Shown here: piece after piece, positions 35,933-62,785 of the stretch
Layout: each line of letters opens with the position of its first letter
How positions within the stretch are numbered: the first letter of the stretch is position 1
Assembly (NCBI RefSeq): GCF_032854445.1
Contig: NC_088303.1
Span: 15,631,501-15,695,500 of the forward strand
Length of the DNA stretch: 64,000 nucleotides
Reading direction: 5' to 3'
Origin: Liolophura sinensis
Taxonomy: Eukaryota > Mollusca > Polyplacophora > Chitonida > Chitonidae
The notes under the pieces: model-generated
The model's input: only the letters and a program-made list of their open reading frames with translations
Told to the model about the DNA's origin: nothing
Databases searched by the model: none
Translations under genes and position numbers: made by a program

Positions 35933-38900
35933 GTGGCCATGAGAGCAGTCCGCTGTCCAGCAAGTCAGATTGGTCACAAACTGGACATGGGTCAAACTCG
36001 GTGCTGTAAACCATGGATTTACACTTGCCCTCCAGGTAAAAATCTGGTGAAGATGTGAGTTTGTGTAAAGTACATTGAAAAGAGAAGTCCAGAACTGTAT
36101 CTGTCCATATCAAGAGAGATAGAAACAGTAGAAATGACAGAACTGGGTATAATTGCCCTAGCCAGATATCTTGCCTCATTAATTTATAAACATTATGAAT
36201 GACTATTGTGACATGTGTACAGTATTAGCATTATGGTGGTTGGATTGAACAAAGAGGGTTTAATCTCAGTTGTACCTGGGTCAGGTCATACCAAATGGTA
36301 CTTGCTGCTTTGCTTGGTGCTCAGCACAAAGAGGACAGAGTAAGGAAGCCTGACTGGTTGGCGCGGTGTCAGTATAATGTGACTGGGCAGGGTGTCATGT
36401 TTGGTGTCTTCGGCATGATACTTCAGTGGCAGCACTTTGTCGCCATGGACTCACCCTACCACAAGAAGACAGCTCACATACCTAATGACACGTCGTCATC
36501 ATATGTCTGAAAAATTGTGAAGTATGACATAAAACCCCAAATGTTAATACATACACACCCTCAGCCATGACCCGTTCCACTAATATATTTAAATTATGAA
36601 TTGATAAATATGACATCAGAACGTCATACTTAAAAATAAATCTAATTTGACAGGAGAATCTGTGTAAAGTGTTGAAAATTTGTTTTACCATTACAAAAGA
36701 TATTTGACAAAACTTGTGTTTTGATTTTTCAGGGTATCCATACACGATCTGTGATGAAGAGGGTGGATGGGATCGATGTGAGAAATGTCGAAACAATCTC
36801 ATTCAACCAAACCCATCAAACTCCAGCAATACTAGGCTTGTCTGTTTCATGCAGAAAGACGGAGGTTGTCGATCGGAAGGTATATATACCGACAAAGACT
36901 GAGCTTTCGGGGATTACAGCACTGTTTGTACAAAGTGTATAACGGTTGGAAAGCTGCTTGCGTTAGACATTAGACTACATCACTCTAGCATATGTAATCA
37001 TACCACGGCATATGAAATTTCACAAAAGCATCACAAATTAAGGCATCATTTAGGTCATGCACCATTTACTGAAGTGGCCAATATTAGCTTCACACCATCA
37101 GCTGATAATGGCTAGTGAATGAATGAGTGATTATGTCTTAAAGCTACATTGGTAATATTTCAGCCATATCATGTCGAAAGGCTAGTGAAGTGCCGTAAGA
37201 CTGCTACACTGGTACACTAATAGTGACATGGCTTTTACGCTACCCTGAGTTGTTTTGTTTTACATCCAGTCACAATTGCTGGATCATTTTTTTGTTTTAT
37301 AGTGTGTCAGTGTGATTTCTTTCTTTGTAGACATGGTTCCACTGAGTGTGTCCCCTGAAGGCCGTTCGGAATGTGTGTGTGACAGATCCAAAGATTATGT
37401 TTCACACTTCGTTGCATGTGATCTGTCTGCTAAACCCTGTGGTATCGGCAAAGAGCGGCAGTTGAATGGTTAGATTTTCTTTAGCTGTGTTTAATATTTG
37501 TTATGTAGAAGGGTTGCAGGAGCTTATTTGTATTTTTGTTTGGTGTGAAAGGAGCATAATCTTTTGACCTTAAGACAGATGTCGTAACAGGTGTGTACAG
37601 GTGAAAAATTTCTTTGAACCTGTCAGACATGGAACAACAGGTGAAATAATTTTAATATTTCATCCCCTTTCTATAGTAGTATTTAACTTTGGTGAAAAAA
37701 TTTTCGGTGGGAAAGGTCCTTAAAATGTTTCGAATTTGTGGTAAGTTAAAATGGAAATAAACAGTTCCTTGACGTTTACTGCTATATTTTAGTAAGCGTT
37801 ATATTTATATTGTTCGTAGAAAGCTGTTCCACCTGTGCGAATGGAACTTTCAAAGACTGGGAAGGCCCTGGACTGTGCATTCCTATAACAAAGTGAGTTC
37901 TGGAAAGGTATAAACCTCCATACAGTCATCCACTCTTGTTTGATGATAGATTCATTACTTTTGTTTATTTATTTGGTTGGCGCTTTACGCCGTACTCAAG
38001 AATGTGGGGAAACCCACAACCATCTGCAGGTTGCTGCCAGACCTTCCTACGTACGGACGGAGAGGAAGCCAGCATAAGATTCATCAGTTGGATGGAGGAG
38101 CATGCCAAGATTGAGTAGTTGCAGGTTAAAACCCGAGCATGGACATGATGGACAGAAAATTTGTATATTCCCTCTACAAAACAGCTTGTAGGGCCTTCAT
38201 CACAATAAGCTTTCAGCACTCATGTGACCGTTGGCGCTGTCTGATGTTTATTGAAGATCACTCGTCTTCCACGACTACAGATTTTTTGTGTAGGTCACAT
38301 GTGTGAAAGTTTGTGAGTAACTTGCCAGAGATCACACCCTGAGCACTCTGGTTTCCTCTGCCCGTGAGCGTGAGTAACAAAGTCTTGAGTATGGCATTAA
38401 GCAACAGTTGAATAAATTATTAAATAGATGAATTGGATTGATTTTTGTGCTCCCCCTCCATTAGGTGGCTTGTATTATGCTATAGCGATTTTATCTGTCT
38501 GTCCATATTTGTGTCTGGGCTATATCTCAACTTGTTTTCCACAGAGAGTTTTACTTTTTGCTGGATGCATAGATACACAGATGACAATAGCCATTTTCCT
38601 TATGTATACTATATCAGTAATGTTGATAGGTTTTCATTAAAGTGAGCCTCCATGACCCGTAAATGGCTAAATGAGTGGGTTCCAATGGAAATGAGTGGGT
38701 CCCAAATAAAGCTTTTTTCCTTGGAGTTAAATTTCTGTTTGATTTAATAATTTTAGTAATTATTTGGTTTTTGGATGACCGAAACTATGGACACGAGATC
38801 TCTTCTGCGCCTGATAGATGCCCAACAAGGGCAATATCTAGAAAAAAATTATGCTTATTTTCCCAAACTGTGAAGAATTATTTAGTGACTGAATGTATGT

Positions 38901-41900
38901 TTACATTTATTTATTTCGAAATATTTCGAAAAAGCAGTCTTGTATTTATAAGATAAATGTTTATAAACAATATACAACAAGTAAATCGTATAGGTCTAGT
39001 TTGTATGTGAGTTATCACATTGAGCAGTGTTCAACCACAAGATTTTATGTGCATGGATTTGTTAAGGTTTACAAAGAAATTACACACAGGTTGTTGTCTT
39101 AATATTTTCTGATGTACTATAGTTTGTCTCTGAGCATTTGTTGTGTATTTTGGGCTTCAAAACTACGTGGTAAATATCCACGATCTGAAAAAAAAAAAAA
39201 TGGCATCGTTTCTTTTAGAGCGACTCTTGATGGAGAAAAACTTGCATCATTTGAAAGACAACAACTTTAAATAATAGTGACACAAAAAAATACATCTGTG
39301 CACCTACATAGGACCCTGTCTGTCAGTAGATTATACATATTTATACATTAAGGTTCAGTTTGTTTATTCTGTGATTTTAATTTGGGTTTGGTGCTCACAG
39401 TATGTAGCCTTACCATACTTACCGCTCATGCTGGCTTCCTCTCTGGTCGTAAGTGGGAAGGTCTGCCAGCAACCTGCAGATGGTCATGGGTTTCCCCAAG
39501 GCTGTGCCCGGTTTCCTCCCACCATAATGCTGGCTGCCGTCATATAAATGAAAAATTTTTGAGTACGGCGTAAAACACTAATCAAATAAGTAAATAAATA
39601 AATACCATACCTACCACATGGGGGAAGAGTGGTGTGTCCTCAGGATGCATTGGTAGTGAAACTATTGTGTCCTTTCCAGTTTGTTTACATCATAGACGCA
39701 GGACGCGTATCTATCAACATCATGGCTATATAAGGACATGTAGATATGATTTCGTGTCTGGGTTATAACTCCAACTGTTTGCTGCGTAGAGCTTTAATTT
39801 TTGGTGGATACATACATGCATACAGCGATGACGATGTATTGCAACTCACATTTGTTTATTTCCACAGTTGTCATGGTTACCAGTTTGCCCGTTTCCTTAT
39901 ATATACTATATAAATAGATATGATTTCATGCCCGGGCTATACCTCCATCTGTTTTCATTTTTGGTGGATACATACATAAACAGATGATGATGTTTCACAT
40001 TTGTCCTTGTGTGCTCTTGTCATGCTTACCAGATTGCCATTTTCTCTATGTGTACAATATGAATAGATATAATTTCATGTCTCGGCTACAACACTGTTTT
40101 TTATGTACAGTTTTAATTTTTGCTGGATACATAGATACACAGATGACTATGTGTTGGAATTCACATTTGTCCATTTTAGTGGTGGTCATGGTAACCAGAT
40201 AGCCATTTTCCTTGTATATACTACATAAATAGAAATGATTTCTTTTTCCAGGCTACAACTCCAATTCTTTTCCGCAGAAAGTTTTCATTTTTGTCAGACA
40301 CATTTGTCCACATGCGTGGTTGTCATGGTAACCACATACCTATCATTAACACCTATGAAGATTCCCCTCAGGGGTTATACTCACCACAGTGCTGCTGGTA
40401 TTCTTTTATACATTTCAAACAAATGCATTTGTTGGGGCATATGTTGTGTTCACTTGAACTCTTGTTACTTGAGTATTTTTCATTTCATACACAAAAACAG
40501 TTAGATTTATGGCTGGAGGATAAATTTTCCCTCATATGTCCTATGTACAGGATACAACCGCAAGGCAGATGACCCTCAGTGCACTCCATATAAGATTATC
40601 TAAACCAGTCATTGCCTTAAAGGCCTCAGCAAGGTGCTGAGTAATAGGTAACCAGTTTTCCCACAAAATGTCATCAGAACTGTAGGATTGAACAATAGAC
40701 TACATAGCTTAGGCTGAATCATTTTCAACATGGTGCCTTATTCATGGACGGGCCCTAGTTGATGTTCTGTGAATGCCTACTCTACATGTAAATGCATATA
40801 GTATGATGTGTTTATAGTTTGAAAAGCAGATGTGCATTCTGTAGTGAACCCAGGCATTGAGATTTTAGTTACATTTTCTGCCAGCATTACATGTATCTTT
40901 GTACCTTGGCAGTTGTGCGGTACGTGGACAGAAGGTTGTCAGTGTGAGCACTCCTGAGAAGGATAATGTGTGTGGAGAAACTGACCAGACTACAGCACCA
41001 AGGTCAACAGTTACCACAGAGCCCCAAACATCTCCCCTTCCAGAACCTGGACCTGTTACAAGTTTGTATTTATTTGTTTGCCCGGTTTCCTGCCTCCGTA
41101 ATGCTCGCCGCCTAGATATATAAAGTGAAACATTCTTGAGTGCAGCATAAAACCCAAGTCAAATAAATACATAAATCTCTTGTTTTGTTTTTTTTGTTCC
41201 TTCATACATGTACGTTTGTTCGTTTGTTCACATTTTCCCAGTAATAATAGATTTTTTATTTTTGTTACCTAGACAGCACTGGTTGTACCAGTGACCAGAC
41301 TTATCTTTGTGTACAATTTCTCTATTAAGTTCAATATCTCAGTATCCAAGATGGCTGCAACAAACACCAACGAATCATTCCTGTCTGTCTGGATAGCTCA
41401 GTTGGTAGAGCAGTGGTGCTAAACTCCCAAAGTCTCACTCTAGCCTGTATTCTCGCTGGTCTTGATTTATCAGTGTACGAAATTATGTCTACTCAGTGTA
41501 TTCGCTGACCATTGCAGTCCTATGTTTTGATTTCAAACTAACATAGGACGAACATGAAGATTGTATGCATTCCGAGTGTGCTTCACCTAAAAGCTGTATC
41601 AAGTAGCTCTTCTGCACTCTGAGGGAGAAATGGTAACAATCACAAAAGCTCCTAAAGTCATTTCGGCTTCATACAAGGCCATCATAAGCGCGTAAAGCTG
41701 ATGGCAATAGTGCTAGCAACCAAGTGACTGCAATAGCCAAGGTTAATCAGCCAAGAAGTACTCATGGAAAATTATCCAAGGTGTTCATATCTTTGGCAAT
41801 CTTGTTAGAAGAAATGAGTTTGCTGCCAGGAGTAACACTCAGCTGGTAGGCCAGTATGTTGCAGTGCAAGGCTAGAAGGTTTAAAAAATCTAAAACGAAA

Positions 41901-44900
41901 AAATCTCTTTTTTATATAGTCATTGTTCACACAGCTGTGGCCTTTGAGACACTTTTAACAGTTGTTGCCTTCTCTTTTGACAGGAAGAGTGGTTATCTCC
42001 TTAATCAGGAAATTTTATTTTAGGTAGTAATGGCTATTTGTGTGTTGTAGTTCAGTTTGATTGATTTTTATCACTGTTCAAATGTGGATGTTATGTTGAC
42101 ATTTCAGAGCCCACCAAAAAAAATTTGTATACAGTAAACCTGAAGTGGTAAGTTCTTAGTTTTACATGTTGACCAGGATATATGTAAGGCCAACTCTTGT
42201 CATAAGCTGCAAGAACTACATGGAAACAAACCTTAACTTAAAATTAACTTCTACATGCTAACCCATGTCACATGTGATGTACCCTCTAATATTACATAGG
42301 AGCTAGCTGAGTGTGCTTGTCTTTCAGTCGTTAGGACTCTTGAGCTGTGGGCTCAATCCCGGTCTTGGTCAAGGAATTTGTGGATTCTCCCCATTCTCAT
42401 TGTTATTGGGGCCTCAGTTGTCTAACATTACTTGAAGACCAATTGTCTTAATCCATATACCAAAACTCGTCAGTAACTTGCCAAAGGTCAGTGGTTTAAT
42501 CCAAGGGCTCTGATTTCTTCCATCCTTAATGCTGAATATCATCATACATAAAGTGAAAAAGTACGGTGTTAGTCAACGTAAGTAAAATTATTACTATTAT
42601 CATTGCTATAGGGATTTCAGAGTGACATAAATTGATTTTGGTAAATGTCAGACCTTTTTGAAAGTGATGGAAGACAGTGTAACGAAGTGTGTGTACTTTT
42701 GTTGTGCACTGTAGGCTGTACAGCCTCTTCTTGGGGCTTGTGGTTGCTGTAGTTATAATGGTGATCGTGTGTATAAAGAAGAGATGGATCACTTGTAACA
42801 TCTGCCAACTCTCTCAGCTCAAATGTACAGGTATGTATTCCTAAAATAACTGGATAAAAACAAACAACGTAACTACTATCCAAGGTGTACATATATTTTT
42901 GCATAGAGAATTTTGAATTTGAATTTTACTGTAAATGCAGGAGTCTTGTTCGCACGTACTGAGGTGCAGTACTTAACAAAAAGTTTAAAGTTATGTTTTA
43001 ATGTGTTTTACGTTGCTTAATATGATATCATTGTGATTATGTGGGAAATTATCAGTTTTGGTGTCTGGTTAGGAATTTCTGTCAGATACCAACTTCTGAA
43101 TACCATTGTCAGAGAAGCAAAAGATACGATACAGACACATAATATTATGTCTGAACCAACGGTTAGCCATTTAATCATAACAGCATGTTAAAGGCAAATG
43201 TGAAGTATTAATCTAATGTTCTAATTAATCTAATAATAATTAGCTTTTGTGATATGATATAACAACACAAACAAACATGATTGTGATTGTGATGTTAATC
43301 GATTGTGATACTGTGAAGTACTTAATTTTCCCGTGGAACCAATTTTCGCAGTCAATAATTTACCGCAAAAAAATAATTCTGGCGAAAATAATTCCAATGC
43401 TAGTATTGAATCGTATACTATAGGTGCCTGTAGTAGTATTAATGAAGTGAAATCTTTGTTATCACAACTTATCACAACTGTCATCCCAGCGATCCAACTA
43501 AATTTTAACAACAGGAAGGGAAAATTAGGCTTCCTACAAAACACTTGTGATGGGGCTTGGTGGGTATAAAACAAAGTGGGAGTTCTTCCTTGGTTTGATC
43601 AGCATTCATTATGCAGGTAAAGTGAAAGAAAAGTAGTTACCAACACATGCTGGCTTCCAGTGAATGTCACTTTGATACATGCTATCCCATTGGGTGTGTC
43701 TCTTTTGTGGACTACTGAGTGAGCTTCTAACAAATTTTGACTATGTACAACAATGGCCGTTTGACAGCTACTTCAGTGTTAGCAGTTTCGGCTACAGAGG
43801 ATGAATGAAACCTAAAGCAATCCAAAACTAATCGTGTTGATTGATAAAGAATGAATAACTGGCGTTGATAATAATGAATTCATTTGTTTGCGTTGAACTG
43901 TTTGAACTGTGACAGGTGACTGATGACTTTGCCAAAGTAATCTTACATAGTTGATAATCCATCCCCAATTGTTTTAATCTCTGATCCAGATTAGGAGGAT
44001 TAGAGACACCGTAGGAAACAAAGGAGGATTAAAGCCACCCTTGATAATACCTGTTTGACATGCTTGAGTAATTTCGGCCATTCTATAAAAGCTGAGGGAA
44101 AATTAAACCATTTTAAGACTTTTTCAGCATTCACTTAATAAAATATACGCAAATTAAGTCCCGCAAACATATTTTTGGAGTAAATCCATGAAAATAAATT
44201 CCACTGAATAATAAGTACTTTACAGTATGGAGATTGAAGGCAGTGTATACTGTAATAGAGTAGACAAATATTTTAATGTTTCAGTTTTATTGTAATTTGT
44301 TGTGTTCAGTGTTGTTGAATTGAAACTAACTTGGTACATGGCTTCAGCGTGACAAGTTACACATCTGTTCTGAGCTTTGGGCTGTTTCATCCATTTTCAA
44401 CAGAATTGTGGCCGTTTTTGTCCTGTTTTTTGTACTCTTGACAGTTTTGTGGACTTTAATCAAATTAGTTTATCACATTGAATGGAAATTTCGAACATCA
44501 CTTCAACATGACAATCTACAAATCAGGCTAATACTAGCTTTCATATCTTTGACAGTAGCCATTGTTGCTTATGTAGGCCTGTGAAACACTTGAGCCATAG
44601 AAAAGCCATAACTTTATTTAAATATGTATGTGACAGTGTTTCCTGAATATGTTGTCCCACACCTGTAAATTTGTAGGACAAATGTAAGTTCTTGTACATG
44701 TAAATAGTTGGATCAATTCCTTTTTCAGACATTTGTACCAGATGTTTTCGCTGGCAGAGCGATCAGAGCAATCAGAGCAGGGAGGATATTGAGATGCAAC
44801 CATTCACATCCAGTAGACCAGATTTGAATCCAGAACCTGTCTATGATGAAATCCTGCTGCCTTGGCAACAACCCCAAGGTGAAGGTCACCAATCTCTGGA

Positions 44901-47077
44901 AACACCTGGCAATCGGTCTGTCTCCCAAGATCAGCATTCAACTGAAAGTATGCCAGAAGGCCAACAGTCTTCTCATAGATCTGCTGAAGGTGGTTTGGAG
45001 GCTCGAAACCATCCTGAAAGTCAAAGGTCACAGGAAGATCACAGTACACAGAACTTTGAAAATAGAATGCCCTGGTCCTCTGAAGCTGAAGGCACGTTGG
45101 GGAATGCCAGGGATGAGATTGATCCAGCACAGATGACCATGCAGCAAAATCAACCAAGTAGACCTGTTGCAGCTGTAAAACGTAAGTTTGTTTCATGCTT
45201 AGCTGGGTGTGAGACTGTATTTGAACAGATATGTACATGTAGTGGTGTCACTATCAGTAGAAGGTTTTAGCTACTTGTAGCTATTATAATCTGAACTAAG
45301 GCAAGGATTTGAGGAGAGAGTGAAAATTGGTATGATTTTATTTCCAGTCTACAACTCCAGTTAGTTTAATATTTGGTTGATACATAGATACAGATCGAGG
45401 TGACGATGTTTTGAGCCCTTCTGCAGTTGTCCTGATGACCAGTATCTACCATAGATATTAGGATATGTACTAATCCTATACTATGTTAATAGGATTATAT
45501 TTGTTTGGGCGTATATTGGGCTCACCTCAACTGTTGTTTATTTTGGTCACACAGGCAATGGTGAAGCTTTTGTGTTTATAGGTAAGTTATAAATAATAGC
45601 AGATCTCTGATTGATTCAAGCTGATAGCCACAGGACTACTTGGTAGTTCCAGTAAGATAAATCAGGCCTTCATTTTTGAGCAGATGTGTGAGTATCACAC
45701 CCCTTACAAAAGACCAGAAATGTGATTTTCACACATGAAGTCATTTCCCCAAGACTTTTAATTTTGCTAGGTGTGTCTTGCTAGCTCACCTAGAAGTGTG
45801 TGTTAGTTGGGAATGTGATTGGCACATCTCAGATTCGATGGCCTGGGTAATGACTGTGAGCTATTGAAACAATTTGCATTCACTGTGAAAGAGCATTGCA
45901 ATTCTCCTATTTTCAGCTATGACAGCTGCACCAGACGGACCCATTCCTGTGTTACGTCCTCTGGTTGATAATGAGGAATACTCACGCATGGGTGAAGACT
46001 CTCATCCAGCTGGTAAGTTTGGCTTTTTGTTTAGGGTGGCAGTGATGGAAACATATTGGGTATAAATTTGGGCTTCTGTGTAGGGTACCAATGAAACCAA
46101 AGTCTGATTAATTTGGGATTTTGTTTAAGTTATCAGTGAAGCCAAAGTCTGTGGTGAGTTTGAGGTTTTATCTAGGGTACCAATAAAGCTAACATCTCTG
46201 GTCAGTTAGAGATTTTATCTGCGGTATCTGTGAAACCAAAGTCCGTGAGTTTGGGGTTTTATTGAGGTTATCATTGAAACCAAAGTCTCTGATGAGTATG
46301 AGATTTTATCTAGATTATCAATGAAGCCAATTTCTCTGGTGAATTATGGATCTTATCTGGGGTATCCATGAAACCAAAGTCTCTGAGTATGAGATTTTTA
46401 TCTAGATTATCAATGAAGCCAATTTCTCTGGTGAATTTGGGATCTTATCTGGAGTATCCATGAAACCAAAGTCTCTGATGAGTATGAGATTTTATCTAGA
46501 TTATCAATGAAGCCAATTTCTCTGGTGAATTTGGGATCTTATCTGGGGTATCCATGAAACCAAAGTATCTGATGAGTATGAGATTTTATCTAGATTATCA
46601 ATGAAGCCAATTTCTCTGGTGAATTTGGGATCTTATCTGGGGTATCCATGAAACCAAAGTATCTGATGAGTATGAGATTCTGTCTAGATTATCAATGAAG
46701 CCAATGTCTCTGGTGAATTTAGGATTCTATCTAGGGTATCCATGAAGACAAAGTGTCTGGTGAGTTTTGGATTTTATGTAGGTTACTAATGATGAGGATC
46801 AAATTAAGAGATAAAGGAATAGAAAGAAATAAAGTTTAGAAACACTTGGTATTTATGTATAAAATGTCTTACTTTACTGATCATGCTGGATGTTTCCTGT
46901 TTTCTGTTTTCAGACCATCACATGCTCTACCAAAGGCCTAGTCCAGGAATGGAGGACTCGCTGGATGACCAGCTTTTACCTAGTGATATACATAACCTGC
47001 CCCCCATGCCCTTTGAGGACCTGGCTCCAGACATGCTGGCTGCTGTCAGACATGATCCCAACACTAACACTTCATAA
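35933..47077 (+). CDS. TNF receptor superfamily protein (type I membrane receptor), 5' end missing
   Basis: Ten exons: 35933-36035, 36733-36879, 37331-37468, 37820-37892, 40913-41061, 42108-42147, 42715-42830, 44729-45181, 45917-46012, 46914-47077. All have GT-AG borders and matching phases, giving 492 residues and TAA. Residues about 8-181 hold 18 cysteines in TNFR cysteine-rich-domain spacing, including 'RCCKPW', 'CVCDRSKDY', 'CSTCANGTFKDW' and 'EKDNVCGE'. The last domain resembles CD40- and NGFR-type repeats. A Thr/Pro-rich stalk is followed by the helix 'LYSLFLGLVVAVVIMVIVCI' and a KKRW stop-transfer. The cytoplasmic tail (about 255 residues) is acidic and rich in Gln/Ser/Pro, with tyrosines in 'PVYDEI' and 'EEYSRMG'. 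I see no death domain. TRAF signalling is therefore possible but unproven. The signal-peptide exon is missing. The family call is firm; no orthologue is claimed. Confidence 0.9.
36290..36545 (+). repeat. SINE of the 'gactgaaaaattg' family
   Basis: Contains 'ggcgcggtgtcagtataatg', 'gcatgatacttcagtggcag' and the tail 'catatgtctgaaaaattgtg' followed by 'aagtatgacataaaacccc'. It lies in the first intron of the visible receptor gene. The 71-codon ORF here belongs to the SINE. Confidence 0.7.
37967..38072 (-). repeat. SINE (antisense), internally deleted
   Basis: 'tatttatttggttggcgctt', 'tacgccgtactcaagaatgt', then directly 'ggggaaacccacaaccatct' and 'gacggagaggaagccagcat'. The middle of the element is missing. 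Intronic. Confidence 0.75.
38440..38640 (+). repeat. Outlying copy of the intron repeat at 39.7-40.3 kb
   Basis: 'gtctgggctatatctcaact', 'ttttactttttgctggatgc', 'atagatacacagatgacaat' and 'ccattttccttatgtatact' match the 39.74-40.33 kb repeats. Confidence 0.6.
39424..39602 (+). mobile_element. SINE insertion with target-site duplication
   Basis: Sense copy starting 'gctcatgctggcttcctctc' and ending 'gagtacggcgtaaaacacta' plus an (aaat)n tail. It is flanked by 13-bp repeats 'taccatacttacc' (39411-39423) and 'taccatacctacc' (39603-39615), with one mismatch. It sits in the intron between receptor exons 4 and 5. Confidence 0.85.
39740..40330 (+). repeat. Intronic tandem array of roughly 150-180 bp units
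   Basis: Four diverged copies start near 39747, 39919, 40066 and 40224 with 'gatttcatg-c-gggcta' variants. Each continues with 'ttttaatttttgctggata', 'cacagatga-gatgt', 'cacatttgtcc' and 'ggtcatggtaaccag'. Single related copies lie at 38440-38640 and 45345-45480. This could be the tandem core of a non-autonomous Helitron-like element, but no Helitron ends were identified. Confidence 0.65.
41083..41175 (+). repeat. SINE 3' fragment beside receptor exon 5
   Basis: 'cccggtttcctgcctccgta', 'gaaacattcttgagtgcagc' and an aaataaataca tail. It begins about 20 bp after the donor at 41062. Confidence 0.75.
41391..41436 (+). repeat. tRNA-like head (A-box) of a SINE or tRNA relic
   Basis: 'ggatagctcagttggtagag' followed by 'cagtggtgctaaactcccaaag' resembles the D-arm and anticodon region of a tRNA. 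No B-box (GTTCRANNC) follows, so a complete tRNA gene is excluded. Confidence 0.5.
42301..42596 (+). repeat. tRNA-derived SINE in receptor intron
   Basis: A B-box-like 'gctcaatcccggtc' near 42350 is followed by a body and the tail 'gaaaaagtacggtgttagtc' plus aacgtaagtaaa. The tail resembles that of the common SINE, but the body differs. Confidence 0.55.
42715..42830 (+). CDS. Transmembrane exon of the receptor
   Basis: A 116-nt exon, entering in phase 2 and leaving in phase 1. It encodes a 20-residue helix of Leu, Val, Ile and Ala followed by KKRW and two cysteines (TCNIC) just inside the membrane, which are possible palmitoylation sites. It fixes the topology as type I. Confidence 0.88.
43309..44227. 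mobile_element. 919-bp non-autonomous TIR element (MITE-like)
   Basis: The left end 'tactgtgaagtacttaattt' and the reverse complement of the right end 'tactgtaaagtacttattat' form imperfect terminal inverted repeats of about 40 bp, further sharing 'gtggaa' and 'attttc'. Both ends carry TA, compatible with a TA-target transposon. No transposase ORF lies inside; the 114- and 78-codon ORFs show no domain. It lies in the intron between the transmembrane and tail exons. Confidence 0.6.
44729..45181 (+). CDS. Large cytoplasmic-tail exon of the receptor
   Basis: A 453-nt exon, phase 1 to phase 1, starting at acceptor 'cctttttcag' and ending at GTAAGT. It encodes 151 residues of low-complexity, Gln/Ser/Glu/Pro-rich sequence with no folded domain visible. 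A symmetric phase-1 exon can be skipped without breaking the frame. The antisense ORF over the same bases is a shadow. Confidence 0.88.
45345..45480 (+). repeat. Second outlying copy of the 39.7-40.3 kb intron repeat
   Basis: 'gtctacaactccagttagtt', 'ggttgatacatagatacaga' and 'ctgatgaccagta' match the same consensus as the intron array 5 kb upstream. Confidence 0.5.
45555..45581 (+). CDS. Candidate 27-nt microexon of the receptor tail
   Basis: Bounded by 'ttttggtcacacag' and the strong donor GTAAGT. It is 27 nt long and phase 1 to phase 1, so it fits exactly between 44729-45181 and 45917-46012 and would insert nine residues (NGEAFVFI plus a junction change). Without it the flanking exons also join in frame. 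It would be an alternatively used exon. Transcript support is unknown. Confidence 0.45.
   Translation, partial: AMVKLLCL
46120..46775 (+). repeat. Minisatellite in the last receptor intron
   Basis: A tandem unit of about 46 bp forms a roughly 93-bp dimer: 'gagattttatctagattatc', 'aatgaagccaatttctctgg', 'tgaatttgggatcttatctg', 'gggtatccatgaaaccaaag'. At least six dimer equivalents are present, and the edges are more degenerate than the centre. Confidence 0.9.
46914..47077 (+). CDS. Terminal exon of the receptor
   Basis: Follows acceptor 'gttttctgttttcag' and encodes 54 residues rich in Pro, Asp and Leu, including 'LPPMPFEDLAPDMLAAV', then TAA at 47075-47077. The conserved-looking acidic/hydrophobic end may be a protein-binding motif. 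No known motif is claimed. Confidence 0.88.
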
Positions 47078-47932: not shown

Positions 47933-47947
47933 TCAAATGAACATTTG

Positions 47948-50565: not shown

Positions 50566-50757
50566 GCTAAGATCCTGTTTTATGTAGATTGTGCTAAGGT
50601 TCTGTTTTATGCAGATTGTGCTAAAGTCCTGTCTTATGCAGATTGTGCTAAGGTTCTGTTTTATGCAGGTTGTGCTTAGGTTCTGTTTTATGCAGGTTGT
50701 GCTTAGATCCTGTTTTATGCAGATTGTGCTAAGGTCCTGTTTTATGCAGGTTGTGTG
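50566..50757 (+). repeat. 27-bp minisatellite
   Basis: About seven copies of 'gtgctaaggttctgttttat' plus gcagatt, with minor variants. The minus-strand ORF across it (repeats such as 'CIKQDLSTT') is only a translation of the repeat. Confidence 0.92.
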
Positions 50758-51837: not shown

Positions 51838-52025
51838 CTATTTGATTCGTGTTTCGCAGCATAATCAAGGATATTTCACTAATACGACGGTGGCCAGCAT
51901 TATGGTGGGAGGAAACCAGTTAGAGCTCGGGGAAACCCACGACAATGCGCATGTTGCTGCAGACCTTCCCATGTACGACCGGATAGGGAGCTGGCATGAG
52001 CCGGACGGGGAATTGGTAGATTCCC
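51838..52025 (-). repeat. SINE (antisense), nearly full length
   Basis: 'ctatttgattcgtgtttcgc', 'aatacgacggtggccagcat', 'tatggtgggaggaaaccagt', 'cggggaaacccacgacaatg' and 'gacctt-ccatgtacgaccgg' follow the SINE consensus throughout. Confidence 0.8.
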
Positions 52026-52129
52026 CCGCTCTCGGTGCTTGACGACAATAAGTGGTCTTGGTGTGCCTGTCTGTGAGTAGGACGTAAAACCCTAACTATA
52101 CATACATACAAACAAACATACATATCTGT

Positions 52130-52270
52130 ACTTCACGTGTGGGGAAAGTTCGCCAGTAACTTAGCACAGATAGGTAGTTTACCTCAGGCACACCGGCTTC
52201 CAACATCGATGAAAATGATGGCCAGTATAAGAGAAATCCTTATGTATGGTGTTAAACCGACGTTCACTTT
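52130..52270 (+). repeat. SINE (sense), degenerate
   Basis: 'gttcgccagtaacttagcac', 'ggcacaccggcttccaacat' and 'tatgtatggtgttaaaccga' resemble the body and tail of the 'gtacgacgttaaaccc' SINE family. Confidence 0.45.
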
Positions 52271-53166
52271 GCGGCCGATCAGGTCTAACACCTTAACATT
52301 TTTAATCCTAGTGCTCACAGGAAGAGGGCAGGAAATGGGAGAGAAACGTTCTTGACGGAACAGCAATCAAATAAAGAAATAAGTGAATTCATAAGAGAAA
52401 GCGTCCCAGACTAACGGACAGATATTTGCGGTCAAATCAATTACATGAGCTAGAAAGAGCCCAGAATAGATGCATGCATGTGTGTTAAACATGATCTAAT
52501 GTGGCGCAAATAAGTAACCCACAACCCCAAACACTTACACGCATGCGTAAATATTATAAGCTGAAAGTACCTTGGGATTGAGTTAAGTCATTATTTATTG
52601 TTGATCAAACAAAGTGTATAGGTTACAAGTTGCTGGCCATGTTGACAGCGACAATGTCGTCTAACCTATAAATATAATAAAAGTAAGCCTTTACTCTTAA
52701 ACTTGGTCCAAGTGAGGCTTGAAATGAAGTGAAGCCAGAATTGAACAGAAGAGGCTACCTGATTGAAGGACATGCATTCGGGTGCGACTTGGAGTGTGAT
52801 ACACAAAATAAAGAAAAAAAAACAGATACTGAAGATATTTTGGCACACAATTTACAACGTAATTCAGCTGGATTGCATTGTCGTCAACGAAGTTTTCCAC
52901 TACTTCCTGTTTTGAGATGTCTACCATAGATAATTTTTTCATCCAAAAATAATAATATTGTAAGGCCAGTTACTTTGTAGACATTCTCCGTCAGATTTTC
53001 AGCCTTTCGGCATTTGCTGAAACGTGTTTTTATTTCGTTATTTTTATAGCAGATTCATTCGATGCCGATATGAGATTTAGTGGCCAAGTCTTCGCTGAGA
53101 ATATGATGCTGGAGTGGGACACAGACTTCTGGCTGAGTTATGTTTGGTACTCTGGCTTTCTTCTGA

Positions 53167-53400
53167 CCTACAGATTACAGAATGAAAATCAGCAATACAA
53201 TCTTTCTTCTCAGGTACGGGTTGCAGAAAGAAATTGGCAATATAGCCTTTGTACTGAGGTACAAGATACAGGAAGAAAATTAGTGATATAGAGTCTTTCT
53301 CCTGTTTAGACTGATTGTTACGGAAGGAAAGAGAGCAATATAATCTTTCTACGGACCTGACTCGATTACAGAAGGAAACCTAAAAATATGGAGTTTCAGT
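53167..53400 (+). repeat. Degenerate minisatellite of about 46 bp
   Basis: Copies of 'tacagattacagaatgaaaa' followed by 'tcagcaatacaatctttct' recur with substitutions near 53168, 53214, 53259 and, more weakly, to about 53400. It accounts for the end of the 73-codon ORF starting at 53070, whose beginning looks exon-like but is not supported further. Confidence 0.65.
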
Positions 53401-54144
53401 GTGACAAACGATCACAGCCTTACGCATCATGGCAGTCAATGTTGTAGGTGTGATTTTCGTCAGGGTGGTTACGTGCAAATAAACAGTAGGTAGTTACGAT
53501 ATATGAAACGGAGACTGGACGTTACAGAGTTGAAAATGAAAAAAGTGTTCATCAGTGAAGTAAAAACCAGAGGTTAAACTTGAATAAATTACATGTATAT
53601 TCGCGCATATATTTTATATCTTATATTGACTTGTTATTCAGAGAGCTTTAACGAGTTGGGGTTCTGTTGGGGTTGCTAAATCCAGGAACAATTTTGTTGA
53701 CCAGATGCAAAAAGAGTTTGCATTAAAATGACATGCATTCACTTGCGAATCTGTTCCATGTTTCTGAAAGCGTATCTGGGCAGAACCGAGTGGCCGAGTG
53801 GCCGAGTGACTGTAACTTACAAGAATTTATGTTCTTAGCCGCCAGTTTGACAATGAAAAGTACCAGAACAGTCAACCCAAGGAAAACCATCGCAAAAGAA
53901 GTGTAAGAATCCTGAGGGACGAAAGTATGACAGTAATCAGTACAATGTGAGTATCTTATTTTTTCAGCGGACTATTTTGTTGGTTAATAATTTACAGTGT
54001 CTGGAAAAAAAGACGTTAAATTTGAATGTAGACAGAGATAAATATCTTGGAATATAAATAATCCAGCGGGTGATAGAACGGGGTTAATGAGTACATTTGC
54101 TCAAATGGTTGATTTACGCCAAAGATAAAAAAAAAAAAAAATCG

Positions 54145-54240
54145 GTCATATGACAAAAACTAGCGGGGGATGGATTCGAACACGCGACGTCATAGATCTA
54201 GGGTAGTAGTCTTAATGTGGTCAGCAAGGGACTCTTGATG
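54145..54240 (-). repeat. tRNA-derived repeat (antisense), B-box with poly-T
   Basis: On the minus strand 'gtgttcgaatccatccccc' is an intact tRNA B-box, preceded by 'ctactaccctagatctatga' and followed within about 30 bp by a T run, a possible Pol III terminator. The acceptor-stem halves do not pair convincingly, so it is a tRNA-derived SINE head or tRNA relic rather than a gene. Confidence 0.5.
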
Positions 54241-54774
54241 GAGTTACTAAGTATTCTTGTCTGAAAACCTAATACCATATTTATTTACGATGGAAGTCAG
54301 TTGTATGGGTGGTGAAAAGCCGAGTGCTCTGCGTAAACCGACCTTCAGCCAGTTACTGACGGACTCCCACATGCGCAAAGGGCTACAGGTGTCACCAAGG
54401 CTTCACAAGCGAGTAAATAAATTTGACGCCCCGTTCCACACAATACACAATACTACGAAGTGCCTCATATTTCAGATTATTTTATCCACGTTCCGATATG
54501 TACCCTAGGAACTGGTATAAATATATATAGGTCAACCTATTTTCTTCCGCATTCTCTGACTGGCCATGTATGGATGAACCAGCCACATTTTCCTTGTCAC
54601 ATTTCGAGACAAACTTGACACAAAGTGAAGAGTTCAAGGACGGTGTATGTGAGTATGCCGTGTACTTGTTACTTTGTACTATGCATGGACTTACAAACCC
54701 GGAAGAAGTATTTATTCAGTTATTTAGCCTATTCATTTGATTAGTAGTTGCAACCCAGTACTTCGGATTTCTCC

Positions 54775-54965
54775 ACTTTTAAAAACGGCCGTCAGGTATA
54801 TACGTGGAGAAAAAACAGAGCCCGGAATGCACCAAAACCCTTCGACAGGTATTCCTGACAAACTTCCTGGCTTATAAATGCAGTGGACTCGTCGAGAGCT
54901 GGATTCAAACTCGCAAAAATAACACTGCGACGATTATTAAAACCAGTTTCGACCCCAAAAGCGTC
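54775..54965 (-). repeat. Degenerate tRNA-derived SINE (antisense)
   Basis: Ends with the inverted B-box 'gagctggattcaaactcg'. Earlier pieces such as 'agagcccggaatgcaccaaa' and 'cttcctgg' are decayed SINE body. Confidence 0.4.
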
Positions 54966-54994
54966 TGATTTATTTGCTCAGTAACATGTGCACT

Positions 54995-55155
54995 CAAAAA
55001 ATTAAACTGTTAATTTTAACAGAAAGTCTGTTGTCTGAGTGGTGCAAAAATGTATTTTGTTATTATAACACAATATTCTGTCAAATTCAACATAATAGTC
55101 TACATTCCAGCATCACTCAGACAACAGAGTTTAGTTAAATTTAACACTCTTTTTT
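54995..55155. mobile_element. Short foldback / MITE-like element
   Basis: The ends form an inverted repeat of about 45 bp. 'gtctgttgtctgagtggtg' on the left matches 'ctctgttgtctgagtgatg' read from the right on the other strand, and 'aaaaa-ttaa-tttaac' continues outward. The total is about 160 bp, with about 65 bp between arms. No ORF. Confidence 0.7.
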
Positions 55156-58100
55156 TGAATTCCAACATTAGGCCTACTATGCAAGTTTTGAAATTGATGA
55201 GAATTTGAAGTAGTCAAAAATCTGAGCCACATGCAGTCCAGCTAAGGTTTGACTCATAAATAAATTCACATGTATAAGAATGCTTTGCAAGCTATATATC
55301 ACTTTATATGTAATAATCACCTCACACCTGTCACCACCCCACATTTCACTTCACATTCACCTATCACGGCTCATACAGCCCGACACAATCCTCACCATCG
55401 CACCCATGCCACCTCTTTTCTTACCGGCTGCAAAGACATCCATACCAACTAAAGTAAGTAAATTTGATCTAAAAATCTATAGCTTTCCCCACTCACTTAG
55501 TTACAACAAGGTGTACTCTACATTTGATGAGGAAGAAACTACAGCACGCAAAACAGTTCAAATACTGGTCGATTTTTTGTCAATTCTGTTTGTGACTGCC
55601 GGTCGTTTCCTGTTTACAAAGCTTAGCTTTACATTGAATTCCATTTGCCTTTTATATATCCTCGTCAAGACAACGTAAACATGTATGTATATCACCATCG
55701 CTGTCGCTAAAGGCGTGTAGCTGTGACAAGCCTACTTCACACTCTGAACCAATTAGTTACACTTCCCTGGGTACATGTACCTAAGTGACATACGTTATGC
55801 GGCAGAATACCAGGAAGTGAAAAGGAATAGTTAAGTTTTGGTAGACTGTAAACACACATTTTACACAGGAATAACGGAAGGTTCATGTATTTCACCTGGT
55901 TCGATTAACAGATAAGCTTCTGATAAGATCCTGGGCATGGTTCTGACGGGTTTAAAGTGGCAAACTTTTGTCTTTGCAAATTTCCATTACAAGATGTAGG
56001 TAATGAGAACAAAGCTTTATGAATATAAATGCTTGTCGTTGTTTTTAATAAAACAAGTGTTCTGAAAACCTTCGGAGAAAGACGCGAATAACAGATATTT
56101 TCGTATCACGCAATTAAGGACGTGACCCTAACCAAATCCCCGAATTGTACAAACCTGTGAATAAATTCTATGACGTTTGGAATGAACGAATGATCATGCA
56201 TGCCTTAAGGCCACATTGGCAATAGTGGTGAGACTATTTCGAATTCATTGTTACGTTTTAACCTAAACGAATTTCTAAAAGATATACTAGCTTAATATAT
56301 TAGATTAACAAATTGTATTTAAGTGAAAACCACATATAATTTAGTTTTCCACGGAGGTTTTGGTTCCAACCATGTTTAGACAGCACTTTTATCTTATATT
56401 AATCGGACCTTATGCCAAGGCGCCTACAGTGCAGCAACAGGCAAAGTAGATTCAACATGAAAAACTAAAGCGTAGGATCTAATATCGAAGGTCGTAGAAT
56501 GAAAATAAAATCCTTATAAACTTTGAGAACAGGCCATTTTTTTTTTGTAAATAGCTTTGGCTTATAAATTACTACATGCGTATCCACAGATCTATTCTGT
56601 AATGCTTGGACTAAAATATTAACACAACATTCAACACCATTCCACACAGAACTGATAACACAGTAAACGAAAGTTGCGAAATAAACCCTTATCATGCAAA
56701 AGTGAGCCAATCATAAGCGCCCCATGACATTTAAGTGACAATCGATAAATATTTGTGGCGTCAGATTTGTTTCAGTTTCTAAGGTGTACATAAACCATGA
56801 TAATACCTGTAGACGTATCTCAACGGGCAATATGTATCAAACGCCGTTAAGGTGCACTTTATCTCTTACGTACATGTATATATACGCCATGCTTAACTTA
56901 AAAAATGTGATGCATACGCGGTACCACTGTCAAGGCAGCTTCTACAGTGGAATTTCACTGAACGATGAACAGGTTGCCAATCTGCCCTGTATTTGTCAAC
57001 AAGAGTGTTATGCTACAGATTGTAAATTTCAGCAATCGTTTAGGGTATAAAGCATGCTACAACCTAAATGTATACATCATCATCATGTACAATGTTAAAT
57101 TCTAAACAATGCCTACATCTATATTGTCGTAAAAAAAGGCGTGGTTAATGGACATTATTAGTTTATTGGGTTTTTTTTACTAACATGAGCGTATGACGTA
57201 CTAACTAGATGATCAGTTCTTACCATCCTTCAAATCGTCGAAGTTAATTGTCTATATTCCTTTCACCACTGAATATAGGTTACTCACTTTTTTTACTTAT
57301 TACTAATTACTTTTTTAAATTGTACCAGATTACAACAGCATAAATTTATTTCCTAACATGTTTGTGTTCATATGCAACTAGCTAATGCGACTAACTATTT
57401 TTGTCTACAAGCCGTACAAAATTCTATAATTTGTGTAATATGTTTACCATGACACGTGTACACAATGTGTGTATGACTGTTACGGATAACGAGGCAGTCG
57501 TTTTTAAAGATTTGGTTTTCTAAAAGAGTAGGTATATCCGTTTTATTGACTTTCACTTAATTTTGAGGAGCCCATTGTGCACACAAAAACAGCAGACGGG
57601 CGTTATTACCGCTTGCAAGACATCCTATTATTGTCACCTTTATTTTTGTGCCGTGATGTAAGCAAGGCTAAGCAAGGCACGAATATGTTCATATTTAAAG
57701 GAGAAGAAAACTTAAAACAATGATGCTATAGGCTGAAAAGAGCACATTTTTTTTCTACATGGTGGTGCCTGCTGCATAATCTTGCGATTTTTCCTCGCCA
57801 TACACGTGAAGTCTAAAAACAGCAAGGCTGTCATAAATCGCTGAGCTCAAAGCGTCCTCCATCTTTAACACCCTGTAATTTATGCTGGAGTGTGTTGCCT
57901 CTCAGCCGATGAAATTCGTTAAAACTGCCGGCTTGTGCGTGTAAACTCTGAACTTACGTCCAACATTCCGATCTTCGCTACATTCTGGGAAGAAGAGTTC
58001 TACCGGAAATGTACGAACTGCACCTCGGCGGTTTCCGACGGCAATTCTCCTCCTAACACAGAAGACTTTAGGACTAGTTTTCAGGCAAAATGGAGTCACC

Positions 58101-59040
58101 CACAGCAGATTTTGGCGCCGACATTATTTATAATTTATCAACTTGTGGTACATATGAGAAATTTTTATGGCATGCACCTGTGAGAAAATGCATGCTCTTT
58201 TCAATGGTATTTGTTTGATACTTCAATTTTCTTCTCCTTTAAATGAAATAATGAAAACTTGGTTTTAGCCGGATCAGTGAATAGTTAAGAAAGTGTGCGT
58301 TGAAGTGCATAGAAGTCAAACATGCACGTGAAGAAACCATCTGCACTCACGTGATATGTACGAACCCGAATTCTCCCGGAAGTTGAAATTTATCAGCATG
58401 CATGAGCGGTGTTGACCCTAAGCATAATAATGTAAAGTATTATTAGCTCAGATCACCCAGAACTTTCAGTAATATACTCGTATTCTACTTACATTTACAT
58501 GACCTGGTATAGAGGTGACCATCAGTCTATTATTTCATTTGTTCTGTTATTACCCTAATTGCTAAAAAACTTGATCTTTATTTAATCATCTCACTGTTAA
58601 ATACCGTAAAAATCATACACATATTTTTTGTGATGCTAATGTTTTTTTATGAAATTGGTCCCGGTTGACCGCCTGATCTGTGATTTGGACACTTCGATTA
58701 TCACTGGTTTCAAAATATCAATGTTTCACACTCGGTAACCAAATCTGGCTAATGTATGGGCTGTGACTATCATAGTTTTGTGATATCAACCTTTCAGCTA
58801 ATACTAAAACTGATCTTTGCATGATATCACCCCATTAGTCTTCAACCCTTTAGTACTGGTTACAGCTAGGCCTGTGTGTGTAAGCTCCGAACTGGATAAA
58901 TTGTGTATCAGCTCATTAGATGAGATCATGTACTTGGTGAGACACGCATCGTTCCTTCAACACTTGCGTCGTCATTGTAAGTATCGGATTGGTTTTTGTG
59001 CTATCAGTCTTTTAGGTGACACAGGATTACCTTAAGGCAC
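55156..59040. other. No gene recognised
   Basis: AT-rich DNA that should contain the missing downstream exons of the minus-strand receptor if that gene is intact. A 132-codon plus-strand ORF (55280-55678) has no recognised domain. A GC-richer patch at 57900-58120 has a minus-strand GTAAGT donor at about 57957-57952 and might be an exon, but no coherent receptor frame was found. Confidence 0.3.
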
Positions 59041-59102
59041 GCTACATGTACCCGCTACATGTACCCGCTACATGTACCCGCTACATGTACCCGCTACATG
59101 TA
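59041..59102 (+). repeat. 13-bp tandem repeat, about 4.8 copies
   Basis: 'gctacatgtaccc' is repeated without a mismatch. Confidence 0.95.
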
Positions 59103-60261
59103 TATACCTTAGTTCAGAACTTGTTTTTTTAAGTAAGCACCTAGAAATTGGCTGTAGCCAAAGTAAAGTCTCCACCAGTGACCACTAAATTACAAGTAAC
59201 ATCACAGCATAATTTACACCTAATTCTCCTTAACCCATTCTGCCAGGGGGACGTACACGTTACTACTTTTTAAGCATATTCATGAACAGTAGGAATAAAT
59301 CCGTGAATGAGTTAAAATGGGCAATCGTAAAACTCCTTCCAGCCTGTATCAAGGCGGTCCAAAGATCTGAATTCATTTGTCCTTTCCTTTATTACGTCAC
59401 AATTGTCGGTGCACGTTTGCTCATAAAACATATATGAAGTACATACATATTGCAAAGTCACAGAAGAAAACGATGTGTTCTACTAACATTTGGACCGGCT
59501 GTGTAGCTTGTCCTCGAGTTTCCCATTGACAAGAAGCAGGATTTCACCGGTATAATACACCGGTCCATTTGCCAACTAGCATTGCTCTGATTTTACTCTA
59601 TGCTGTGATCTCTTGTTTTTGTTCTACATGTATGGGCTGTTGACATGCCCCTTGTGGTTACAGCAATTGATACCTTGGTTGAAATTAAGTTGGATAACTA
59701 TTTGTTTCGTGATATTTCTGCATATGCTTACACATCATGAAGTTATGTAACATCCATCCTAGTCAGCTCTGCATTAGTCAGAAATGTTTATTAATCAGTT
59801 ACAGTATGACTTTCATCCTGAGTTCATTTCCCTACAGCCAGCCACCTGCTGTCCTGGAGAATTTGGTTGTCCAACAAGCCCGGCCACTGTCATGCATACA
59901 TAGCCAACATAGCTTCAATGGTCTAGTCATAAGCAAAATTACTTGCTTAGTCTTCCCTCGAGTCAATATACCCAGACAGAATAAATGAATTATTATGGTT
60001 TAGCTAAATTTCATCTTTGTAATATGACAAAGATTATTCAGTAGGCCTATACGTTTCTGACTGGTTTATCTCAAAGTGAAGGGTGGGGTTACACGCTAAC
60101 TGGTGGTTCTGTACTGGTATACCCTCCATAGTGTCATTTTGGTAACATCTTTGAGAAACAGAACCAGTTTAACACACGCACGATTAAGGCGTCAGTATCC
60201 CAAGAATGACTGAGAAAAATCGTTCCAATTTCGAAGCTATAAATGTTCCAGAATTAGAATG

Positions 60262-60420
60262 TTCTTTATTTGTTATTAATTTTATTTGTTAGTTTAGCGG
60301 GAGATTAATGCTTATATGCTAGAACATATCACTTATAAGACGGTACGTCAAGTAAATGGGTTGAGGAAACTGGGGATAGCCCGAAGAAACCACCGCCCTT
60401 CGCCAGGTGTACAGGGAGCA
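60262..60420 (-). repeat. Strongly decayed SINE (antisense)
   Basis: 'gggagattaatgcttatatg', 'tatcacttataagacggtac' and 'gaggaaactggggatagccc' are recognisable as the SINE body, with many changes. It lies just 3' of the paralogue's exon at 60578-60702, i.e. in its intron. Confidence 0.5.
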
Positions 60421-60577
60421 GTCTTCCTAAAGCCACCATAACCGCAGCTGACAAACGTATGTCATTGTATGTGTTTTTATTATCTTTTAGTTCCGTCTAA
60501 ACACATTGACAAACGTCTCCATATTTATCAGAAGCTGGTATTCAGGTGTCGTACTACATCCTTCATAGCTCACTCAC

Positions 60578-62785
60578 CTAATGTCCTGTTCATTGGCATT
60601 ACAGACGTTACATGCTTGGAGATCACTTTGCTCTGCTTCTCACATTTGGCGTCTGTGGATGTTGTACCATTTAGCTTCAAGGAAAGACGTTTACTTTCAC
60701 AACTGAAAGAGAACAATGAGCATTTGCGTAAGGGGTCATTTCCTGAACAGATATGCCTTCCAACACTGATAAAGTGGAGACAATTTTTGCGGGTTTCCTT
60801 CGATTTAATTCAGCGATCAAAACCATATCTATATTCAGTGTATTTCTGAAAGATAATTTGCAAAGACATTGTATCTTTCCATGTGTTTCTAATGTCGAAA
60901 TGACGTGTGTTTCAACAACATTTATTGCAAAACTCGTGTGAAGAGCTTCAGAAAGTGTACCATTTAATACTAGTAAAATGTTGGTCCAGTGTATTTTTTC
61001 AAAACTTGGTCTGGTGTTAATTATCTTGAGTCACTCAATTAAAACTATGCTGCCTTCATTCTGGTAATTCTATGTAACATTTGTATTTTCACGTCACAAA
61101 AAGTTTGCATGCGTTCAGGATGTTTCTAGTCAACCGGTCGGAGGTGCAAAATATAGTGCCTTCGTTTGATTCTTGGCAGTCTCATATCTAAAGTCACGAA
61201 GCAAAGGAATCGCTCGTTTTAGGGGAACAGGTTGCGTTAATAGAGTTCATTTAAAATACCGTGATTATAAAACGGGATTTCATACTTGGTCCAAGGCTTA
61301 CACAAGCCGAAGCCACCCCAATCTTTGTAAGTTCCCAAAAGACATTCTCCACAAGTTCCTAAAATAATAAAAGTGTAGACAACAATAGCTTATAAATCAT
61401 AGTTTACCTTGTTGATTGATCTGACTGTAATGACAATGATGAATATTTACGATGATTATCTAGCGAAACGAGGAAACATGTCTCAGTTTGAAGAAAATAA
61501 ACATCAGGTCCTTACACCGGTAAGTTCTCGGTAATGTGGCGCCGACTATAACTGTAGATGTTTGTCAGGTACTTGGCAAAGGAAATGCACCTGACTCACT
61601 TGTTTCACCCATCCATATAAACCAGACCTCCGCCAAGCGGCGCTAAAATACTAGTCTAATAAATGAAGAAAACACAGCAGAAACAAGAAAGGTTGTCGTG
61701 GGTTTAGTGCAACAATGAATTGTCTAAGGTAGGCGCAATGTGGCTGAAGGAAACGACAGGGTGATACGATCGAAGTGGGAAACAGGGTGTTTGTGAAAAG
61801 AAAGTGCAGACAAAAGGAGAAAAAGGTGTGATTAAACAAAAAAATGTAATGAAGAAAGTTTGTACCAGTATAAAAGGTTTAGGATGGCAAACAATTCCAA
61901 GATTAGCAGACAACTAACTCCGGGATAACGAAGAGATTTAATTTAGATTAAATTTTAGACTAAAATTCTTGAGCAAACAACAACTTGGCGTTAAACAACA
62001 TTCAAATCAACAAATAAATAAATTTACCAATTTTACACCTCGCATGTTCATCAGCATTATCTCTAAGGAGACAAAAAGATTTGTTCGATGTCCAATCCTT
62101 ACCATTCACCTGTAGTTCCTTTCCTTTTGGACAACCCCGCGGTTTGAAGTCACATCCAATGCCACCCATTATAGGGAAGTAATTGTTTGCTCTGTCACAG
62201 ATGCAGGATGGTCTCACACCCCTGAGCATTTCCACCCGGTTCAGTGGAACTTTGTCTGGAACAGAGTTTGAAGATACTAAGATGTCAGCCCACAACCTAC
62301 TCCAAGACATCCAAATCGCAATAAATTTTTGAGAAATGGACGGTAAATTTATTTCTTATAAAATCTTTCTATACAGAAAGTAACATCAATAGGCTTTCTT
62401 TACATCTGTTCGATGTTTGAAAATATTAGCGCTAGAATGGTTTGAAACATTTCAACAATTGTACAAAATAAGTTGTCCCTGTTTCTAAAAAACTCCAGAA
62501 CGGTTCTCGGTTACAAGTAATCTATATGCAAAGTATGTATGAGAAAGCTCAGGAATAGGATGTGTGTCATTCCATGTAATATCCTTAACCGCTTTTCTAA
62601 CCTTACTTTCTTTAAACCGATTAATCGATTAATGTATTGATGTATACCTTCACTACATATCGGCCTGTTTTTGAAACAACTTTTCGGATGGGTTGAGTTG
62701 GAAAGATTCGGTTGAATGGAGCCTGAAGGACATTTCCTGCAGACATCCGGGCCGCCATCTTTGTCACAAATCGTGTAAGGGTAAT
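60578..62785 (-). CDS. Second TNF receptor superfamily gene, four ectodomain exons
   Basis: Minus-strand exons in order: 62785-62648, 62255-62103, 61358-61286, 60702-60578. All have GT-AG sites and continuous phases (1,1,1,2,1). They align exon by exon with the plus-strand receptor: 'YPYTICDKDGG' with 'YPYTICDEEGG', 'SCICDRANNY' with 'ECVCDRSKDY', 'TYKDWGGFGLC' with 'TFKDWEGPGLC', and 'TNCESKRL' with 'TNCAVRGQ'. The third exon is 73 nt in both genes, and cysteine order is kept. Sequons NLS, NST and NGT suggest glycosylation. The first CRD exon should lie beyond 64000. Stalk, transmembrane and tail exons should be below 60.5 kb but were not identified, so a membrane receptor, a soluble form and a broken copy all remain possible. 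ORFs on the opposite strand over these exons are shadows. Confidence 0.85.

Follow-up and report, generated by a model that had tools for sequence, protein, structure and literature searches.

A probable convergent pair of paralogous TNF receptor-type genes in the chiton Liolophura sinensis

We analysed a stretch of 64,000 nucleotides from the chiton Liolophura sinensis (RefSeq assembly GCF_032854445.1, contig NC_088303.1, positions 15,631,501 to 15,695,500 of the forward strand; hereafter the window, in which position 1 is the first letter). It is likely that the window contains two paralogous genes of the tumour necrosis factor (TNF) receptor (TNFR) superfamily, which converge tail to tail and derive from an old duplication. 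The gene on the plus strand (35933-47077) would encode a receptor that lacks a death domain and whose last cysteine-rich domain (CRD) resembles that of 4-1BB (TNFRSF9). Its partner on the minus strand (62785-60578) is seen in part, being incomplete at both ends within the window. The same convergent arrangement had been proposed in a first-pass annotation of the letters, and it stands. The pair are probably death-domain-less TNFR-superfamily genes, that is, added members of a receptor type that is already known.

On the plus strand, ten segments bordered by AG and GT join in frame into 1479 nt with no internal stop, giving a product of 492 residues that consists of a cysteine-rich ectodomain, a Ser/Thr/Pro stalk, one transmembrane exon and a cytoplasmic tail of 255 residues. 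Exon E1 (35933-36035) carries the first cysteines and ends in CCKPWIYTCPP; E2 (36733-36879, with YPYTICDEEGG) and E3 (37331-37468, with CVCDRSKDY) are cysteine-rich; and the last CRD is divided between E4 (37820-37892, 73 nt) and E5 (40913-41061), the latter also encoding the start of the stalk. E6 (42108-42147, 40 nt) continues the stalk and, running from phase 1 to phase 2, links E5 to E7 in frame, a placement without independent support. E7 (42715-42830) provides the transmembrane segment, LYSLFLGLVVAVVIMVIVC (Kyte-Doolittle 2.98), a strong hydrophobic stretch with basic juxtamembrane residues after it, and is the sole transmembrane-like exon found in 37893-44729. The tail is encoded by E8 (44729-45181, inside an open reading frame (ORF) of 188 amino acids), E9 (45917-46012, with NEEYSRM, which contains a YxxM motif) and E10 (46914-47077), which supplies the tail end and the stop codon. 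Exons E2 to E10 start in phases 1, 1, 1, 2, 1, 2, 1, 1 and 1.

The GC content of this gene is 0.479 in exons versus 0.367 in introns. The ORF around E8 narrowly surpasses the longest ORF of every one of 60 windows generated by a first-order Markov model, for which the mean was 148 and the maximum 187. Two splice sites are weak, the donor of E5 (-2.0), which adjoins a dispersed repeat, and the acceptor of E1 (0.5), an exon whose start is uncertain. Because no signal peptide was found in E1, the gene should begin farther upstream. The sole ATG-to-donor hydrophobic candidate above our thresholds in 31600-35932 lies at 34113-34175 on the plus strand; it ends in phase 0 and fits E1, and is a weak candidate without other support. 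In the region just past E5 (41062-41177), the dispersed repeat begins 17 bases beyond the E5 donor, and read-through at this donor would add 20 residues and then meet a stop ahead of the transmembrane exon, a possible secreted form. Intron 9 contains a minisatellite (46083-46792) of 47/94-bp units, with 7.6 copies of 94 bp.

The minus-strand locus comprises four exons, M2 (62648-62785), M3 (62103-62255), M4 (61286-61358) and M5 (60578-60702), all of them open and with usable splice sites, including a strong donor at M5. They join into an ectodomain of 163 residues, the first of which depends on an assumed base. These exons are the counterparts of E2 to E5, in the same order and with the same phase at every border (1, 1, 1, 2, 1); M2 to M5 start in phases 1, 1, 1 and 2, that of M2 being deduced from its open frame, and M5 ends in phase 1, like E5. 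E4 and M4 have exactly equal lengths (73 nt). Common exon order, intron phases and one exact exon length had been claimed at first pass, and our rebuilt exons confirm all three. The intron sites also correspond, falling after CRSE and ICSE, after QLN and QVN, and within PIT/N and PWT/N in the plus and minus copies, respectively.

Comparison of the two products by BLASTP gave 67 identical residues of 167 (40%; expectation value (E) 6e-34), which bears out the proposed paralogy of the ectodomains. Identity was 54% over 41 residues between E2 and M2, 38% over 37 residues between E3 and M3, and 57% over 23 residues between E4 and M4. For E5 and M5 tblastn returned no significant match; M5 was assigned by its phase, by how its cysteines are ordered and spaced, and by its match in the PDB. 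From E2 and M2 on, each copy contains 14 cysteines in identical order, and their spacings never differ by more than 2. Twelve of the 14 fall in common columns of a MAFFT alignment, and the other two pair by order and spacing only: one is displaced by a single residue, and the last, though unaligned, lies equally far (19) from the preceding cysteine. When a profile of E2-E5 and M2-M5 was run against the 2195 ORFs of at least 20 amino acids in the window, it returned just the eight paired exons (the next had sub-threshold E of 1.4 and 2.7), indicating that the window holds two such units and not more.

For family assignment, we searched the sequences of the PDB, which come from solved structures, with each ectodomain singly and with a two-row profile of both. 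The plus ectodomain matched TNFRSF9 (E 2e-9), and the distinct sequences listed with E of 1 or less, 13 in number, were all TNFRSF9. The minus ectodomain also matched TNFRSF9 (1.3e-6), the 22 sequences listed being 13 TNFRSF9, five CD40, three RANK and one ELR1. The two-row profile gave TNFRSF9 at 2e-9, with 13 TNFRSF9 and one ELR1 among the 14 listed. The TNF-receptor type suggested by the first-pass annotation is thus upheld by the PDB matches of both copies. Cysteine-preserving shuffles of the plus ectodomain, the copy (rather than the minus) that this control covered, gave no match at E up to 1 in two of two cases.

The last CRD of the plus product taken alone (E4 and E5) matched TNFRSF9 with E 1.9e-10. 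Below the TNFRSF9 chains came DR6 (0.0012), RANK (0.054), OPG (0.082) and OX40 (0.13), and the weak matches among the 34 listed at E up to 10 include DR5, antibody chains and others. The assignment to the TNFR type therefore appears well supported for the last CRD; for the remaining ectodomain it would rest on cysteine spacing and the exon plan, and some whole-ectodomain alignments to TNFRs reach over the earlier units. The likeness to the TNFRSF9 chains (5wi8_A and 8gye_A) lies in the last CRD (C..C..GTF.D...G.C.PxTNC...VCG in the plus copy) and in the preceding C.C...C......C..G.E stretch. The plus product differs from TNFRSF9 in its penultimate ectodomain unit, which is two cysteines short, as read from the alignment, and in its tail, which lacks the three TRAF motifs for which it was scanned. 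4-1BB itself is not known to have a death domain. CD40 (TNFRSF5) and RANK (TNFRSF11A) resemble the minus product less than 4-1BB does, as do DR6 (TNFRSF21), RANK and OX40 (TNFRSF4) the last CRD of the plus product. A match across all CRDs, as would be expected of a 4-1BB orthologue, was not obtained, the N-terminal half of the plus product staying unmatched when searched alone.

The separation of the two copies looks old. Comparison by NG86, for which 158 residues were aligned (some of them within the stalk, which aligns poorly), gave rates of 0.60 for nonsynonymous (dN) and 3.1 for synonymous (dS) change, with dN/dS of about 0.19; a dS of this size is near saturation and provides no date. No DNA match between the loci covers a paired exon; the matches consist of dispersed repeats and of short, weak stretches. 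It is this dS, together with how little DNA is common to the loci beyond dispersed repeats, that points to an old split with later divergence, as the first-pass annotation had it. Its fuller claim, of an old inverted local duplication, is supported as regards age; the local inversion is a step that we infer, the loci sharing repeats and short weak matches beyond their exons. The restraint of amino-acid relative to synonymous change fits an old pair whose ectodomains would have been under purifying selection on average. The dispersed repeats, which we take to be short interspersed element-like (SINE-like), occur at both loci (33400-33591, 37951-38078, 39424-39603, 63814-63955 and others); several of them end in GAGTACGGCGTAAAACACCAATCAAATAAATA-like sequence, and almost all the DNA matching between the loci is due to them.

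In the last CRD the copies are no closer to each other than to the vertebrate-type receptor. Of 46 residues, 18 are identical between plus and minus, while the 4-1BB chain 5wi8 shares 23 of 46 with plus and 20 of 46 with minus, and the chain 8gye shares 20 of 45 and 18 of 45, respectively. The four comparisons with 4-1BB gave alignment scores of 96 to 134, versus 89 for plus against minus, and each of these scores was higher than the best of 500 cysteine-fixed shuffles. Such likeness may mean that an old CRD type has changed slowly, that a short module framed by cysteines has converged, or that the two copies are deeply split; a domain of 46 residues is too short to decide among these. The pattern weighs against a recent, lineage-specific duplication of the pair. 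It would also fit copies that were members of an old TNFR set, each retained on its own, and that had become neighbours otherwise than by local inverted duplication. Little common flanking DNA other than dispersed repeats, and a kinship of the tails that is not among the demonstrated likenesses, agree with this possibility. We nevertheless find it doubtful, as E2 and M2 are 54% identical, the N-terminal half of the plus product matches no TNFR in the PDB, and the differences in identity within the last CRD amount to just 0 to 5 residues. Adjacency together with a common exon plan is most simply explained by local duplication.

The cytoplasmic tail of the plus product is rich in P, S, Q and E. 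Searches of the PDB with the tail (E up to 10) and of Pfam with E8 (E up to 0.1) returned nothing. The tail contains one YxxM (shuffle P 0.117) and the tyrosine motifs PVYDEI and EEYSRM. No death domain was found among the Pfam matches of the joined plus protein, nor among the matches (E up to 0.1) of 131 ORFs in 13-60 kb; region, strand and size had been the criteria for picking 142 of the 2195 ORFs, from which the 11 inside the intron-9 minisatellite were omitted. No cytoplasmic death domain having been found, the plus gene is not placed among the death receptors. It could be argued that the gene is a death receptor of which we missed the death-domain exon. All junctions between E7 and E10 being in phase 1, an overlooked symmetrical exon would leave the frame undisturbed, and a domain split across shorter exons could escape the scan. 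This explanation is very unlikely, given that none of the 28 plus-strand ORFs of at least 30 amino acids in 42800-47100 (39 less the 11 in the minisatellite) matched a death domain at E up to 0.1.

Several results weigh against the reading of the two loci as an old pair of TNFR genes. The Pfam profile of the family, TNFR_c6 (PF00020), did not match the plus product at E up to 10 and scored the minus product at E 0.041, with 14.7 bits against a cut-off of 29.4; a match to this profile had been set beforehand as the test of the assignment, and formally the test failed. Ephrin_rec_like (E 0.0021) even surpassed TNFR_c6 for the minus product, yet its 18.3 bits are also below the respective cut-off (23.1). 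The N-terminal 129 residues of the plus product taken alone found no TNFR at E up to 10, only one chance-level match. The three canonical TRAF motifs, [PSAT]x[QE]E, PxQxxD and PxExx[FYWDE], occur nowhere in the 255 residues of the plus tail, an absence that is not significant because shuffles are expected to contain just 1.09, 0.19 and 0.47 of them. At fourfold sites of common amino acids the base is kept in 10 of 22 cases, above the quarter expected at full saturation with equal bases, and the closeness of dS to saturation counts on the same side. The exon models of both loci, furthermore, derive from genomic sequence only. At the minus locus, tblastn detected no counterparts of E8 to E10, and an exon-chain search downstream of M5 gave nothing credible for a tail. 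The positive control of that search was poor: started from E5 and trained on ectodomain codons, it returned E9, part of E8 (in a second chain) and a false end; trained on the very answer being sought, it recovered E8 to E10 and still missed E6 and the true E7.

The two profile scores are what could be said for chance cysteine-rich frames, or for another cysteine-rich family without TNFR kinship. Such an explanation is hardly credible and is largely refuted by the PDB matches to TNFRSF9, the empty shuffled controls and the strength of the paralogy (E 6e-34).

The minus-strand gene may encode a membrane receptor or a soluble decoy, or may be a relic. Transmembrane-like candidates on the minus strand of 60577-47078 number three, at two places, whereas the plus strand of 47078-60577 has none. 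The best of them (53911-53821) resembles E7 (tblastn E 0.076) and is not established as an exon; it starts in phase 0 and M5 ends in phase 1, so that a further exon would be needed between them. That the locus is a decaying or partial copy, with ectodomain exons only and no working receptor gene, is unlikely. The missing E8 to E10 and downstream chain would agree with it, as would the failure to see an E1 counterpart in the 1.2 kb left between M2 and the window end. Against it, all four exons have open frames, their splice sites are usable and their phases match, all 14 cysteines have an in-order partner, the chain search has little power, and dN/dS is about 0.19, though a recent loss would leave no sign in this ratio. 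A soluble decoy receptor without transmembrane segment and tail is a rather improbable alternative: no tail was found and the E7-resembling candidate is out of phase with M5, but an intervening phase 1-to-0 exon could escape detection, and the absence rests on a weak search.

TNFRs of this general kind have been described in other invertebrates. Mollusc TNF/TNFR systems respond to bacteria (PMC4979521), and many TNF-related contigs are described for Mytilus edulis (PMC3308963). The oyster has TNFRs with and without a death domain, some of them responsive to Vibrio, and the chiton pair resembles, by description, the death-domain-less members of this expanded invertebrate set (PMC4346834). TNFR numbers cited elsewhere are 36 for amphioxus and 40 for a coral (PMC12843592). 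A further likeness, by description and not by sequence, is to Drosophila Wengen, a protostome TNFR without a death domain, in an account where it is argued whether the first TNFR possessed one (PMC2772990). Fly Wengen and Grindelwald are described as signalling via JNK and not NF-kB, and a shrimp receptor placed in fly cells as not activating NF-kB (PMC7674686). A small share of the matching literature contained no description of a 4-1BB-like last CRD in invertebrates, which says little. On TNFR intron phases, the literature listings offered nothing usable, and a term search of PMC5413580 returned nothing on exons.

By analogy with the superfamily, each receptor would bind a trimeric TNF-type ligand through its CRDs. 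The ligand would cluster the plus receptor and thereby draw adaptors to its tail, which by its composition is probably disordered. Since no death domain was detected, the output would be JNK-type (or NF-kB-type) signalling in stress or immunity and not direct death-domain apoptosis with caspase recruitment. JNK would be the likelier of the two, in view of its use by the fly receptors and of the inactivity of the shrimp receptor towards NF-kB. As the three canonical TRAF motifs are absent, contact with adaptors might involve divergent TRAF binding or the tyrosine motifs PVYDEI and EEYSRM, both of which are guesses. The copies would have arisen by an old duplication, and their ectodomains would since have been under purifying selection on average.

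The rest of the window contains other features. A tandem array with a 2728-bp unit occupies 1018-17575; the copies that begin at 2551, 5279 and 8007 agree to 99.96-100%, the partial edge copies have 98.9% and 97.8% identity, and diverged pieces extend as far as 17575. The array adjoins a gap of 200 N (818-1017), so its copy number may be a matter of assembly. The ORF at 30931-31566 on the minus strand has QRICH1 (E 2.6e-10) and DUF3504 (E 1.5e-9) domains and appears to be continued by the ORF at 30254-30703 on the same strand, which has no Pfam match. These two were the only convincing families of the 19 returned by the ORF scan at E up to 0.1 (next E 0.0031). A 27-bp minisatellite with 7.1 copies (50564-50755) is open on the minus strand as CIKQDLST-like repeats and is probably not coding.

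A more far-reaching idea is that a death-domain-less lineage with a 4-1BB-type last CRD predates the protostome/deuterostome split, two of its members being kept adjacent in this chiton. We consider this improbable. If it were true, the co-stimulatory type of TNFR known from vertebrates would be older than adaptive immunity, and the phase-2 intron within the PxTN/C motif might be ancestral. Otherwise, the pair represents ordinary receptor-family growth, TNFR-type receptors being known from many animals. The standard Pfam profile misses the plus product and scores the minus product below its cut-off, and yet both match the sequences of 4-1BB structures; some TNFRs thus escape the profile, and counts based on it may run low. 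Death-domain-less pairs with fixed exon phases would also provide intron-position characters for the question of whether a death domain was present in the first TNFR.

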